Positions 1,277 to 10,849 of a stretch of DNA of 64,000 nucleotides are shown in pieces. Made by a program: the position numbers and the translations under genes. This DNA is from Pseudomonadota bacterium (GTDB lineage: Bacteria; Pseudomonadota; Gammaproteobacteria; Steroidobacterales; Woeseiaceae). The DNA lies in NCBI GenBank assembly GCA_027618995.1, contig JAQCGO010000003.1, forward strand, positions 62,001-126,000, read 5' to 3'. The notes beneath the pieces are model-generated. The model saw only the letters and a program-made list of their open reading frames with translations, was not told the DNA's origin and did no database searches. The stretch's first letter is position 1; each line of letters starts with the position of its first letter.

Positions 1277-2185
1277 ATGCTGCGACAACGAACACTGAAA
1301 ACCACCATCAGGGCAACCGGCATTGGGCTGCATACGGGCGAAAAGGTCTATATGACCTTGCGTCCGGCGGCTGAAAATTCTGGAATTACATTCCGTCGAG
1401 TCGATCTCGATCACCCTGTTGATATCAAGGCTGACCCGCGTCTCGTCGGCGAGACCATGCTGGGCACGACTCTGGTCAAAAATAGTGTCAAGGTTGCTAC
1501 GGTTGAACACCTGATGTCCGCGCTGGCGGGCCTCGGTATCGACAATGTGTATGTCGATCTGTCAGCTCCTGAAGTGCCCATCATGGATGGCAGCGCCGGG
1601 CCATTTGTGTTCTTGCTGCAGTCGGCAGGAATTGAAGAACAAAATGCTGCCAAACGGTTTATTCGCATCAAGAAAAAAGTGCGGGTTGAAGACGGCGACA
1701 AATGGGCAGAGTTACTGCCGTTCAACGGCTTCAAGGTGAGTTTCGAGGTGTATTTCAATCACCCCGTTTTCAACAAGCTGGTGCAGCATGCGAGTATTGA
1801 TTTCTCGTCGACCTCGTTTCTCAAAGAGGTCAGCCGGGCGCGCACGTTCTGTTTCCTGCGTGATGTCGAGGCGCTGCGTGAGCGCAACCTGACGCTTGGT
1901 GGCAGCATGGATAACGCCATCGTTCTCGATGACTATCGCATTCTTAATGAAGACGGACTGCGCTATGGCAATGAGTTTGTCATCCACAAGATTCTCGACG
2001 CGATCGGCGACATGTACCTGCTCGGGCATTGCGTCGTCGGCGAGTTTCGCGCGTACAAGTCCGGACATGACCTGAACAACAAATTGCTGCGCGCTCTGCT
2101 GGAGCAGGAATCGGCCTGGGAAGAAGTGACTTTCAAGGATCCGAAGAAGGCGCCAGTTTCTTACGCGACGCCGTCTTACGCCTAG
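1277..2185 (+). CDS. lpxC: UDP-3-O-acyl-N-acetylglucosamine deacetylase
   Basis: [45 protein letters not shown]; follows ftsZ. Confidence 0.98.
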
Positions 2186-2242: not shown

Positions 2243-2542
2243 CTAGTGTCGGCCAACCCGTACGGAGCAGCTGAGCACGGTTTTTCCTGAGCCGCGGGCG
2301 GCCGCCATCAGGCGCTCGCTTTCAAAACGCAATCGAGCCGCCCAGGCCGATGAACTGGCTAGAACCACCAGGGTGCCATCGTCGCGAATGTTGGCGGCGC
2401 TAATAGCCAGAGCCTGATCTTCGGGCAGGGCCTTTTGCAGCGCCTGGACGAGGTCACCCATCTCCCGGGCATGCCGGATTATGTCTCCTAAGCCCCCGTT
2501 ATTGCTGAGCATTAGCAGCTTTTCGAGGCGTTTTTCGGTCAT
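2243..2542 (-). CDS. DciA-like DUF721 domain protein
   Basis: Small protein between lpxC and the M23/secA genes, LVVLASSSAWAARLRFESERLMAAAR resembles the DUF721 core. Confidence 0.7.
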   Translation of the reverse strand: MTEKRLEKLLMLSNNGGLGDIIRHAREMGDLVQALQKALPEDQALAISAANIRDDGTLVVLASSSAWAARLRFESERLMAAARGSGKTVLSCSVRVGRH

Positions 2543-2647
2543 TGAAGTGTGACGCAGTTAGCGATTTTGCAGGCTCCAGAGCGACTAAATGCCCGGTTCG
2601 GGCTGTGATTTCTTGTATTAAAAACCGACATTATGCATATTGTGCCT

Positions 2648-2734
2648 TCGATAAGGGCAAACCCGTTGAAAGACGGGGACGCAAAACCACCGGTCTAAGG
2701 GACTTGATCCTACGACAGCGGGGCTACCGAAGTG
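2648..2734 (+). ncRNA. Cyclic di-GMP-I (GEMM-I) riboswitch
   Basis: AAGGGCAAACCCGTTGAAAGACGGGGACGCAAAACCACCGGTCTAAGG...CCTACGACAGCGGGGCTACCGAAG matches the GEMM-I consensus (GGGCAAACC, GAAA tetraloop, GGGACGCAAA.CC, CUAA, AGCGGGGyUACCGA). Confidence 0.92.
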
Positions 2735-2832
2735 AAGATTGACAGCAGCTCCAGAACAATAAGAGTACGCCGCATTATGGGCGGCGCTGAATTGTCAACA
2801 ATTGATACGCAGGCACGCTCGAGGTTATCTCG

Positions 2833-3765
2833 ATGAATGTAGTTATTTTCGGCAAGGGCTTCGGCAAGCCCAGGCAACTTAGTCTGTCCGGCCTCTGGGT
2901 CTGGGCGGCGGCGGTTGGTATGGCGGCGATTGTATCTGCCGCAGGATTTGCCGGCGGCTACTGGCTGTCATCGACGACGGGTTCGGGAGTCAGCCAGAAC
3001 GAGGTGGCAAGTCTGGCCACCGAACTCGACCTGCAACGAGAGCATATTGCGACGATTAGGCAGTCGAGCGAAGACACACTGGATGCGTTGGCCATTCGCA
3101 TCGCTCAGATGAATGCGCATGTCATTCGACTTGATGCGCTGGGACGTCGATTGACGGGGATGGCCGATCTCGACGATGGCGAATTCGACTTCGATTCGGC
3201 GCCCGCGATGGGTGGTCCGGAGGAACCCGTCGCTACGGGTTCGAACATTACAGTCCCCGGGCTTGTCGACCACATGCAGGCACTTGACTACCAACTTGAC
3301 AATCGGGAATCGCAATTGCGCGTACTCGAAAGCATGCTGATGAACCAGAACCTCAAGGATCGTGTATATCCACAAGGGCGCCCCGTTGGCGCCGGCTGGA
3401 TCTCATCCTATTTCGGTAAACGGACCGACCCGTTTACGGGCAAGCCGGCCAACCACACCGGTATCGACTTCGCTGGCAAGTTCGGGGCGGAAGTGATCGC
3501 CGTTGCCGATGGCGTGGTTACCTGGTCCGCCGATCGCTACGGCTACGGCATGATGGTCGAAATCAATCACGGCAACAGCTACTCGACGCGTTATGCACAC
3601 AATTCCGAGAATCTCGTCGAGGTTGGTGACGAGGTAAAGAAAGGTCAGGCTGTGGCGCGGATCGGTGATTCCGGTCGTGCCACCGGGCCAAACCTGCACT
3701 TTGAGGTACTCAAGGGCGGCAGTCGCGTCAATCCGGTGAATTTCATCCGCGAATCCACGAAGTAG
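2833..3765 (+). CDS. M23 (LytM-like) metallopeptidase with N-terminal membrane anchor
   Basis: Single TM, HTGIDFA and NLHFEVLKGG motifs. Confidence 0.93.
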   Translation: MNVVIFGKGFGKPRQLSLSGLWVWAAAVGMAAIVSAAGFAGGYWLSSTTGSGVSQNEVASLATELDLQREHIATIRQSSEDTLDALAIRIAQMNAHVIRLDALGRRLTGMADLDDGEFDFDSAPAMGGPEEPVATGSNITVPGLVDHMQALDYQLDNRESQLRVLESMLMNQNLKDRVYPQGRPVGAGWISSYFGKRTDPFTGKPANHTGIDFAGKFGAEVIAVADGVVTWSADRYGYGMMVEINHGNSYSTRYAHNSENLVEVGDEVKKGQAVARIGDSGRATGPNLHFEVLKGGSRVNPVNFIRESTK

Positions 3766-3875: not shown

Positions 3876-6779
3876 GTGGCAAATTTCTTGACCCGAATTT
3901 TCGGTAGTCGTAACCAGCGCCTGTTGCGCCAATACTCTAAAACCGTAAGCGGCATTAATACCCTCGAAGCTGGCCTGCAAGAACTTGACGACGCGAGTCT
4001 GCGCGCCAAGACCGACGAATTCCGCGCGCGCTACGCGGACGGCGAGACCTTGCAAGAGCTGTTGATTGAAACCTTCGCCGTCGCGCGCGAGGCGGCCCGG
4101 CGAACCCTGGGAATGCGTCCGTTTGATGTGCAGCTGATCGGAGGCATGGTACTGCAAGACGGCAATATCGCGGAAATGCGTACCGGTGAAGGCAAGACCC
4201 TGGTCGCCACGCTGCCGGCCTATTTGAATGCAATGAGCTCCAACGGTGTGCACGTCGTCACGGTCAACGAATACCTGGCGCAACGCGACGCAGACTGGAT
4301 GCGACCGGTTTACGAATTTCTTGGACTGACCGTTGGCGTGTCCAAAAGCGGCCAGATGCAGGAGGAGAAACGCGCCGCGTACAGCTGTGACATCACGTAC
4401 GCAACTAACAATGAACTCGGCTTCGACTACCTGCGCGACAATCTCGCGTTTTCGCTGCAGGACAAGGTGCAGCGCAAATTGAATTTCGCGATTGTCGACG
4501 AAGTCGACTCGATCCTGATCGATGAAGCGCGTACGCCGCTGATTATTTCCGGCCCGGCCGAATCCAGTACGGACCTGCACGGCCACATCAACAAGCTGAT
4601 TCCGAAGCTGAATAAACACGAGGAGTCGGAAGCGGAAAAGAATTTCGACATCATGGCGAAGCGCGTTTCGCTGCTCGACGAGAAAGGTAAAGCGATCAAA
4701 GTTGCGGGCGCAAACGGCGAGCAATCCGAGCTCATGAGTCTCGAGCAAGCTGTAGAAATCGGCGATCAACATGGTGCGGACGTTGTCGCGGTCGGTGAGG
4801 AGGGCAAGGCTGTAGCCTGCAAGCTGGTGCGGCGCGGTGATTACGTGACCGACGAAAAGGCCAAGCAGGCGCACATGACCGAGGATGGTCATCAAAAGGT
4901 CGAGTTGCTCATGGCGCGGGCGGGCCTGTTGCAGGAAGGCGAGAGCCTGTACGACGCCGGCAATATTCGTTTGCTGCATCACCTGAATGCAGCGCTTAGA
5001 GCGCATGCTATCTATCAGCGCGATGTCGAATACATCGTCAAGGACGGCGAGGTGGTCATCGTTGATGAATTCACCGGCCGTACGATGCCGGGTCGCCGCT
5101 GGTCAGACGGTCTTCATCAGGCGATTGAGGCGAAAGAAGGCGTCGCAATTCGGCAGGAGAATCAGACGGTCGCATCGATCACGTTTCAGAACTACTTTCG
5201 CCTGTACCAAAACCTCTCCGGCATGACCGGTACCGCGGACACCGAGGCGTTCGAATTTCAACAGATTTACGGGCTCGAAGTTGTCGTAATTCCCACAAAT
5301 CAGGCCATGGTTCGCATCGACTCGCCGGACCTGCTGTATCTGACGAAAACAGACAAGTTTGAGGCGATCATTGAAGATATTGTCGATTGCCGGGAGCGCG
5401 GCCAGCCTGTGCTTGTTGGAACCACCTCAGTCGAGGCCTCGGAATTACTGTCAAAACTGCTCACCGAACGCAAGATCGATCACGCGGTATTGAACGCCAA
5501 GCAGCACGAGCGTGAGGCTATCGTTGTCCAGCAGGCCGGTCGACCTGGTGCGATCACCATTGCGACCAACATGGCCGGTCGGGGTACCGATATCGTTCTC
5601 GGCGGCAACCTGGACGCGGAAATTGCCGCAGCGGGTGAGGGCGCCGATGTCGACAATATTCGTGCCGAGTGGCGGCTACGCCATGACGCCGTGCTGGCGT
5701 CTGGCGGCCTGCACATAGTTGGCACCGAGCGACATGAATCGCGGCGCATTGACAATCAGCTCAGGGGTCGATCCGGTCGGCAGGGCGATGCGGGATCCTC
5801 AAGATTTTACCTCTCGCTCGAGGATACGCTGATGCGTATTTTCGGTGATCCGGAGCGTACCAAGTCCTTGCTTGGACGGGCTGGCATGCGCCCGGGCGAA
5901 GCTATAGAAAGCAGGCTGCTGTCGCGGCAGATCGAGCGAGCGCAGCGCAAAGTCGAAGCGCACAACTTTGATATTCGCAAGAACCTGCTTGAGTACGATG
6001 ACGTTGCCAATGACCAACGCAGGGTGGTTTATCACCAGCGCACTGAACTGATGGCGGCAGAGGAGATCGAGGATTCGGTTGCGGCAATTCGCGACGAGGT
6101 CGTCGGCGGCCTGGTGCAGCAATACATCGCGCCGGGCAGCCTGGAGGAGCAATGGGATCCCGAAGGGCTGAATCAGGCCCTGACCGCCGATTTTGCTCTG
6201 CACGTGGACGTGGCACGTTGGATTCGCGAGGACAAGTCGCTTAACGCTGACGGCATTCGGCAACGCTGTATCGATGAAGCCGACAAAACATACCAGGCTC
6301 GAACCAGTGCGGTCGGTAGCGAACTGATGCGCAACGTTGAAAAGCAGGTCATGTTGCGCCAGCTCGATCACCATTGGAAAGAGCACCTTGCCGGCATGGA
6401 TCACTTGCGCCAGGGTATCGGTCTACGCTCATACGCACAAAAGAATCCGAAGCAGGAATACAAACGCGAGGCATTCGAAATGTTTGGCGCGATGCTGGAA
6501 CAAGTCAAGCATGACACGATCAGCATTCTCGCCCGAGTTCGGGTTCAGGGCGAGCAGGATCTCGATGATTCGGCCGAGCGGCGGCGCGCGGCGGCGGCCC
6601 TGAAATTCCAGCATGCGGAAGCCACGGCGCTCGGCGACGGCGTACCTCAGTCGCCAGCATCGCAACGACCGGAAGCAGTCGAGACGTTCAAGCGCGAATC
6701 ACCCAAGGTTGGCCGAAATGAAGCCTGCCCTTGCGGATCGGGCAAGAAATTCAAGCAATGCCACGGCAAACTTGCCTAG
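3876..6779 (+). CDS. secA: Preprotein translocase ATPase SecA
   Basis: [40 protein letters not shown]-terminal SEC-C motif [14 protein letters not shown]. Confidence 0.99.
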
Positions 6780-8660: not shown

Positions 8661-9545
8661 TTACATCATGGTGTCGAGATAGGCGTTCTTGATCGTATCG
8701 ACGCCGAGCATCATCGTCATCCACCCGGCGGCGGCCAAATAGGGCCCGAACGGAATCGGTAATTGCCGGTCCCGTCCGCGCAGCACGATGAGGCCGATGC
8801 CTGCAACTGCGCCCACCACGGCGGACATCAGAATAATGATCGGCACGGCTTCCAGCCCCAGCCACGCGCCGAGGGCGGCCAATAGTTTGAAGTCGCCGTA
8901 GCCCATGCCTTCCTTGCCGGTAGCCAGCTTGAAAAGCTGGTACACACTCCACAGGCTGAGATAACCGACCATCGCGCCCAGGATGCTATCGGCCGGCGAA
9001 ACGAACAGGGACTGGGCTGGCATCGGGTGCAACAAACTCATACCGAGTCCGACCCAGACCATGGGCACGACAATCGAGTCAGGAATCAGTTGATGGTCGT
9101 AGTCAATCACACTGATGGCAACCAGCGCGCAGGTCAGGCCGATCGCCATGAGTGCTTCCCAGCCGAAGCCAAATTGCCAGGCACAGGACGCTGCCAGGAT
9201 TGCACTCAGTGATTCGATCAGGGGATAACGTGTCGAGATCTTCTGTTTGCAGCCAGCACAACGGCCCCGCAGCATCAGGTAGCTGACTACCGGTATGTTT
9301 TGCCAGGCATTGATCTGCGCGCCGCACGACGGGCAGGCGGATCGGGGCAAAATGAGATTGAACGGAGCATCAGGTATCTCCGGTGCCGGCGTGCTTTGCA
9401 ATTCCGCACATTGCTCGCGCCATTCGCGATGCATCATGAGCGGCAGCCGGTAGATGACAACATTCAGGAAGCTACCGACCAGGAGTGCAAAAACGAACGC
9501 GACGGCGATAAAGAGTTCGGGTGACTGGGAGAATAGTTCAACCAT
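8661..9545 (-). CDS. pilD: Prepilin peptidase / N-methyltransferase
   Basis: Paired CxxC motifs CPSCGAQINAWQNIPVVSYLMLRGRCAGC; GMGYGDFKLLAALGAWLG. Confidence 0.97.
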   Translation of the reverse strand: MVELFSQSPELFIAVAFVFALLVGSFLNVVIYRLPLMMHREWREQCAELQSTPAPEIPDAPFNLILPRSACPSCGAQINAWQNIPVVSYLMLRGRCAGCKQKISTRYPLIESLSAILAASCAWQFGFGWEALMAIGLTCALVAISVIDYDHQLIPDSIVVPMVWVGLGMSLLHPMPAQSLFVSPADSILGAMVGYLSLWSVYQLFKLATGKEGMGYGDFKLLAALGAWLGLEAVPIIILMSAVVGAVAGIGLIVLRGRDRQLPIPFGPYLAAAGWMTMMLGVDTIKNAYLDTMM

Positions 9546-9577
9546 CCTGTTGCTCCGGAAAGTCCGTACCTGACACA

Positions 9578-9616
9578 AACAAAAACGGCGCTCGGAGTTT
9601 CCTCTGAACGCCGTTG
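9578..9616 (-). terminator. Rho-independent terminator after the first pilin gene
   Basis: Minus-strand AACGGCGttcagaggaaactccgagCGCCGTT followed by TTTTG. Confidence 0.75.
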
Positions 9617-9803
9617 CAATGCAATTGTGTGGCGGATGTGACCTATAAAAATGCCGCTCGATCGTGCCTGTGAGCATTACAGTCTCACTGATCCAAGTCC
9701 CCGGATCAACTCGATTTTGTGCAGCTTGTCACAGTTAAGGGAATTGATTAAGTCAAACCCCGAAAATAGTCCGGACAGACTATTTTGCTACGTAACTCAG
9801 GCC

Positions 9804-10301
9804 CTAATTCCTGCAGCTGGACGGCAGGTATCGCGTTTCGACGGTCGGTGCCTGGTGAGCAGAGCTTACACCCCCACCGCTCAATTCAACGGCACCTGCG
9901 GGTGCGCCCGCAGCTCCGCAGCGCCACATGACGCTGCCACTTTGTGACATGTAGGGCGTGAAAGAAATAGTGTCGTTCTGAATATTCTGGTGCGCGTCAT
10001 TGTTGAAGGTAACCTGGACCCGGCCATCAATGATGTCGACCTCGCTGACGTAACTGCCCTGGGTGTCAGCGGGCGCTGCTGTCATGCCGGCGGCCGATCG
10101 ATCCGCGGGTGGCCTGCCTTCCATATTGAATGCGTCAACGACTGGCGCCTTTGCGCCGGCCGCCATATTGATCGCCTCCGCCACCTGCGCACGCACTGTG
10201 TAGGTCTGATAGGCCGAAACAGCGATGGATGCCAGGATGACGATGATCGCCACAACGATCATTAACTCGATCAGCGTAAAACCTTGGTTCAGATTTTTCA
10301 T
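9804..10301 (-). CDS. Type IV pilin (PilA-like), copy 1
   Basis: [32 protein letters not shown] prepilin signal; C-terminal Cys pair. Confidence 0.92.
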
Positions 10302-10344
10302 GGGGTTCACCGGGCTTGATGTTACTGGATTCCCACTAGCGGCT

Positions 10345-10378
10345 GAAAAAAAGCCCCGAGCAGGCCGGGGTTTCTTGA
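10345..10378 (-). terminator. Rho-independent terminator between the two pilin genes
   Basis: Minus strand AAACCCCGgcctgctCGGGGCTTTTTTTC. Confidence 0.75.
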
Positions 10379-10414
10379 CTGACCACTTAGGCAAAAAGCA
10401 CTAAGTGTAAAGTC

Positions 10415-10849
10415 TTAGGTGCGGCAAGCCGCTGGCAGATGCTTGTTTAAAATCACCCCGCCAGCGCTGGTGCAAACCCACTGAACGCTGCCTACTGTCG
10501 CCGTGACCGGCGCGAGCTGGAGAGTCTGGCCCGCGATTACAGTATTCGCACTGTTGCCATAGGTCACGGTAATTATGCCGTTGGCTACGGTAACCAGCGA
10601 TACGTATTTGCCCTGGATTTGCGCAGCGAGAGCCAGCCCGGCAATGGTGTTGTCGACCGGCAAGGAGCCACGATCCTGGTAATACTTGGTAACGGCTGCT
10701 TTCGCGCCGTCGGACAGATTCAGGCCCTCAAAAACCTGAGCGCGAATCCTGATGTCCTGGTAAGCGGGAATAGCGATGGTCGCCAAAATACCGATAATCG
10801 CGACTACGATTATCAGTTCGATAAGTGTAAAACCCTGTTGCTTCTTCAT
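10415..10849 (-). CDS. Type IV pilin (PilA-like), copy 2
   Basis: [34 protein letters not shown]-terminal Cys pair. Confidence 0.94.
   Translation of the reverse strand: MKKQQGFTLIELIIVVAIIGILATIAIPAYQDIRIRAQVFEGLNLSDGAKAAVTKYYQDRGSLPVDNTIAGLALAAQIQGKYVSLVTVANGIITVTYGNSANTVIAGQTLQLAPVTATVGSVQWVCTSAGGVILNKHLPAACRT

Follow-up and report, generated by a model that had tools for sequence, protein, structure and literature searches.

The window (the whole 64-kb stretch of DNA that was analysed) carries a gene for a 310-residue protein with an M23/LytM domain at positions 2833–3765 of the plus strand (PF01551, E = 1.3e-31). Upstream lie lpxC (1277–2185, plus strand; PF03331, E = 6.6e-109) and a divergent DciA-family gene (2243–2542, minus strand; PF05258, E = 3.3e-12), and downstream lies secA (3876–6779, plus strand; PF07517, E = 2.3e-129). 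These Pfam matches confirm the gene order in the first-pass annotation, which had placed an M23 gene between lpxC/dciA-like genes and secA. (As read from the list of open reading frames, the window also has two tandem pilin-like genes on the minus strand, at 9804–10849 and 8661–9677, which adjoin a prepilin-peptidase-like gene.)

Just upstream of the M23 gene is a c-di-GMP-I (GEMM-I) aptamer (2646–2731, plus strand). The covariance model RF01051 matches there over its full length with 84.2 bits (E = 3.9e-15; the gathering score is 35 bits), and this is the sole riboswitch that Rfam detected within the window. The annotation had called a near-consensus GEMM-I aptamer and suggested a covariance-model search, and the significant match bears the call out. 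Covariation in helices P2 and P3 agrees: across 22 relatives, 91% of cells are paired, versus 34–47% in slid registers. The outer helix P1 is weakly conserved. A P1 helix that encloses the start codon of the open reading frame described below is possible in the window, and across relatives only the first tested pair is well kept. We also saw an apparent co-variation of the P2 tetraloop with its receptor in P3: in one clade (L038, L044, L047, L064, L065, L069, L095, L096, and others), the tetraloop is GUGA, GCGA or GUAA, versus GAAA, and the receptor changes from UCUAAGG to a CCUGG-like sequence.

We then considered the ligand. The annotation's G at the position-20 contact is G2657, and it is invariant in the 22 aligned aptamers, as are the equivalents of A47 and C92, which the window also has. 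(Positions 20, 47, and 92 are approximate assignments to the Vc2 numbering.) Because these three bases are present and invariant, we expect the ligand to be c-di-GMP rather than cGAMP, which is bound by the G20A form of GEMM-I (PMC6274999). With a full aptamer and its ligand-contact bases, the element is, as judged from its sequence, a c-di-GMP-I riboswitch.

The aptamer stays with the M23 gene, which is what the annotation had proposed to check by comparative genomics. We gathered related loci by scanning GTDB genomes with the M23 protein and took the best 80, mostly from Woeseiaceae; aptamers were detected with covariance models, including one built from related aptamers. An aptamer of at least 56 bits lies just upstream of the M23 gene in 77 of these 80 loci. 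In two others (L125 and L128) the corresponding site holds a degenerate match, of about 25 bits, and the covariance models found no match upstream of M23 in L127. (The degenerate elements, L125:3055–3153 and L128:4688–4786, have apparently lost the A47 and C92 equivalents, by decay or for a new ligand.) In nine other families of the same order, the aptamer is present in 27 of 40 sampled genomes, and one of these order-level aptamers (L214) is of the c-di-GMP-I-GGC subtype. The 56 M23 orthologues taken from other parts of the class all lack the aptamer. G048 and G064, family members whose genomes measure about 1.5 Mb, have a single GEMM-I each, and it is the M23-linked one; in a genus with genomes of 1.1–2.0 Mb, we found neither a GEMM-I nor a clear M23 orthologue. 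Across the family, a genome can hold up to 21 c-di-GMP-I aptamers. The window's genome holds two, and the second (L002; G000:C76:476–574, minus strand; 65.4 bits) is near a contig end and is followed by an open frame that runs off the contig.

The aptamer's 5' edge, near position 2648, is probably where the transcript begins, because a promoter-like pair is conserved just upstream. In the window this pair is TTGTAT (2613–2618) and CATATT (2636–2641), 17 nt apart. A TTGTAW-17-CATAKT-like pair is found in 75 of the 78 aptamer-bearing loci, with a spacer of exactly 17 nt in 74. (The pair at 2613–2641 was not among the predictions of a generic sigma-70 scan.)

The aptamer ends at 2731 and the M23 gene starts with the ATG at 2833, about 100 nt away, as annotated. 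The tie between aptamer and gene holds, but the gap is not simply an untranslated platform: its main feature, which the annotation missed, is a conserved leader open reading frame that runs from the aptamer to the M23 start. This leader (2732–2836, plus strand) has 34 codons (VKIDSSSRTIRVRRIMGGAELSTIDTQARSRLSR, followed by a stop). Its GTG start at 2732 sits at the aptamer's 3' edge, three bases past the closing ACC, and its TGA (2834–2836) overlaps the ATG of M23 as ATGA.

Counting the window, 77 of the 78 aptamer-bearing loci keep this arrangement: a start codon 3–6 nt past the aptamer, 31–50 open codons, and a stop that overlaps the M23 start. Such a frame arises in 3.6% of dinucleotide-shuffled gaps. 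In the first 73 loci counted, 65 of the overlaps are ATGA and 8 are TGATG or TAATG. Across gap lengths between 97 and 155 nt, the reading frame is always preserved. Fourteen loci no longer have a start codon in the usual position; each has one 1–3 nt away instead, placed to fit the length of its gap. (We rejected a start farther upstream, inside the aptamer: no in-frame alternative there is conserved.) In locus L119 (4798–5001), the aptamer is retained (66 bits), the leader is broken, and the gap is AT-rich.

Chance or lineage inertia does not account for the leader, as judged by the shuffles and three other observations. First, the gap sequences of the related loci still form 25 clusters at 65% identity. 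Second, the arrangement recurs in 23 of 28 loci from the deeper families of the order (one of them has no more than a degenerate aptamer), versus 6.4% expected from shuffles. These leaders range from 14 to 90 codons, and five order-level loci have none. Where the second codon of M23 is incompatible with ATGA, the stop is mostly at ATG+7. Third, among aptamer-free M23 orthologues of the class, at least 30 open codons end at the start codon in 12 of 47, which is the chance value (26%). Nor did the arrangement turn up at the family's other GEMM-I loci (about 17), except perhaps at L004. Together with the chance-level orthologues, this means that the leader belongs to the pair of riboswitch and M23, rather than to the gene alone or to GEMM-I elements generally.

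How might ribosomes reach the leader? The only Shine-Dalgarno-like sequence 5' of GTG 2732 is GGGG at 2720–2723, which likely serves the leader and which lies in the 3' strand of helix P3; the Rfam structure pairs each of its four G. Its spacing to the leader start is 8 nt in 63 of 77 loci, as it is for the dominant M23 ribosome-binding site. Within the leader there is a putative stem-loop (2740–2797; outer stem 2740–2743 with 2794–2797). One of its outer pairs is a standard pair in 17 of 19 sequences, with six types among them. RNAalifold did not call this stem-loop in the nearest clade, and it predicted a leader stem in another clade. Two other elements from the first-pass annotation are also within the gap. 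The cgccgc/gggcggcg hairpin is present, and by eye its GCC/GGC core can be seen again in sequences of the nearest clade. The window likewise contains the AATTGT/ACAATT palindrome, which is not conserved (the closest relative, L053, lacks it). Overall, the window's leader folds no more stably than its shuffles do (z = -0.5).

From these features, we think it likely that the riboswitch acts on M23 through the leader, and as an OFF switch. The aptamer, as the first element of the transcript, would govern translation of the 34-codon frame that starts at its 3' edge; we infer that this frame is translated. Ribosomes that finish the leader would stop at a codon that overlaps the M23 start and then reinitiate there, and M23 output would track leader translation, which would also open the stem-loop within the leader. 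Binding of c-di-GMP would block ribosome entry at the leader start, which would lower translation of the leader and, through lost reinitiation at the ATGA, of M23. We favor the OFF direction on two grounds: P3 locks up the one Shine-Dalgarno-like sequence that the leader has, and the footprint of a 30S subunit overlaps the folded aptamer. A 30S subunit at GTG 2732 and the folded, ligand-bound aptamer would exclude each other. A point against this OFF relay is that P3 should form without the ligand as well. The weak conservation of P1 also counts against it, as do L119 and the five order-level loci that have no leader. M23 might, moreover, be initiated independently, given a Shine-Dalgarno sequence of its own.

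The same relay could run in the opposite direction, with c-di-GMP favoring leader translation, for example by preventing a CCCGY/GCGGG pairing. Both RNAalifold and the minimum-free-energy fold prefer this competing pairing over the native one. But the computed ensembles pair the GGGG in both folds, so folding energies do not fix the switching step or its direction, and the ligand-bound aptamer would occlude the site too. We consider an ON switch unlikely, although it fares better than any other alternative.

The annotation's own model was an ordinary translational riboswitch, in which the aptamer acts on the M23 ribosome-binding site (GAGG, 2821–2824) via a small hairpin over it (2819–2833; CTCGAGG/CTCG), and the open frame in the gap would be incidental. 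The CTCGAGGttatCTCG hairpin, which was said to be able to hide that site, does exist in the window. In the nearest clade it shows weak covariation (three pairs, one of them double-changed), and in another clade it is not predicted. It would also be surprising for an incidental frame to stay open in 77 of 78 loci, and to do so whatever the gap length. There is perhaps a small chance that this model is correct.

Another explanation for the conserved frame is that it encodes a small basic protein, which the riboswitch would control and which would be co-expressed with M23. The peptide is indeed rich in arginine, with a net charge of about +5. Nevertheless, in 31 disjoint pairs of close relatives, a dN/dS-like ratio for the leader is 0.90 (95% interval 0.72–1.14, which includes 1), and the differences are spread evenly across the three codon positions (194, 214, and 224). 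The peptide has no match in Pfam, and its length across the order is far from constant, as given above. We therefore reject conservation of the peptide as the cause of the leader, and a functional small protein seems very improbable. Since the start, the frame, and the stop are kept and the peptide is not, the selected property appears to be translation of the leader in cis.

Translation in cis could also serve transcription. Translated leaders can act by shielding RNA from Rho, and c-di-GMP would then set the balance between termination and read-through. An intrinsic terminator search gave three weak candidates, none of them convincing between the aptamer and M23 on the plus strand, which fits; yet shielding would leave unexplained the constant overlap of the leader's stop with the M23 start, which coupling predicts, and we give this explanation very little weight on its own. 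A Rho-type effect may act in addition to the relay.

In our comparison with known systems, the closest precedent for such a relay is the B12 riboswitch and uPPE2 of Mycobacterium tuberculosis. Experiments showed that ppe2 is controlled by a B12 riboswitch, with reinitiation after uPPE2 at an AUGA overlap, as an OFF switch (PMC11260477). Both systems have a riboswitch followed by an out-of-frame upstream frame whose stop overlaps the target's start as AUGA, an anatomy that holds for 77 of 78 loci in all, the window included. In M. tuberculosis, the target depends on uPPE2, mainly by termination-reinitiation, and the switch is OFF (PMC11260477); the likeness here is one of anatomy. The ppe2 system also has features of its own: a B12 aptamer, a host from another phylum, a partially conserved uPPE2, and masking by a separate anti-initiation stem (PMC11260477). 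Here we have instead a c-di-GMP-I aptamer, a Shine-Dalgarno-like sequence inside P3, and conservation across the order.

Other riboswitches share single features with this one. Well-studied c-di-GMP-I examples are terminator-based (such as Cd1, an OFF switch; PMC9262584), whereas here the leader comes next and no separate expression platform is evident. In the SAM-II riboswitch of Sinorhizobium metA, a Shine-Dalgarno sequence within the riboswitch is required for initiation at a more distal start, but the second AUG is in frame and 74 nt downstream, a terminator intervenes, and there is no overlapping out-of-frame leader (PMC9373788). In a search of the open-access literature, we found no report of a coupled leader behind a c-di-GMP riboswitch. 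Slightly short of an even chance, in our estimate, is the fuller proposal that there is no separate expression platform because a strand of P3 is itself the leader's ribosome-binding site, that the peptide is irrelevant, that the relay runs from stop to start, that it is order-wide, and that two streamlined family members have retained it as their only GEMM-I.

Searches of riboswitch leaders usually look for terminators and hidden ribosome-binding sites. Here the output layer would be a reading frame, one that is conserved yet would be missed by annotation pipelines, and comparison of about 100 genomes suggests that what counts is its being translated, not its peptide. It would be a natural and easily tested relay, which could exist behind other riboswitches. 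It would also tie c-di-GMP to a LytM-domain envelope protein from the lpxC–secA region of widespread, largely uncultured bacteria.

Finally, we examined the M23 protein. It has an N-terminal hydrophobic stretch that resembles a membrane anchor and a C-terminal M23/LytM domain, which it shares with ShyA, MepM, EnvC, and NlpD. It scores below every NCBIfam equivalog cut-off. The zinc ligands of the HxxxD motif and the second histidine of HxH are present: H208 and H289 are kept in 78 of 78 relatives, and D212 is present in the window's protein and in the orthologues inspected. H256 is retained as well. The first histidine of HxH is not; asparagine (N287, window 3691–3693) replaces it in 78 of 78 aligned relatives, and the same holds for two aptamer-free family members. 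Class-level orthologues and ShyA keep this histidine. The annotation's M23 domain is real, but because of this asparagine, activity as a peptidoglycan peptidase is doubtful. It is possible that the protein is a non-catalytic LytM factor that, like EnvC or NlpD, has a role in regulation.
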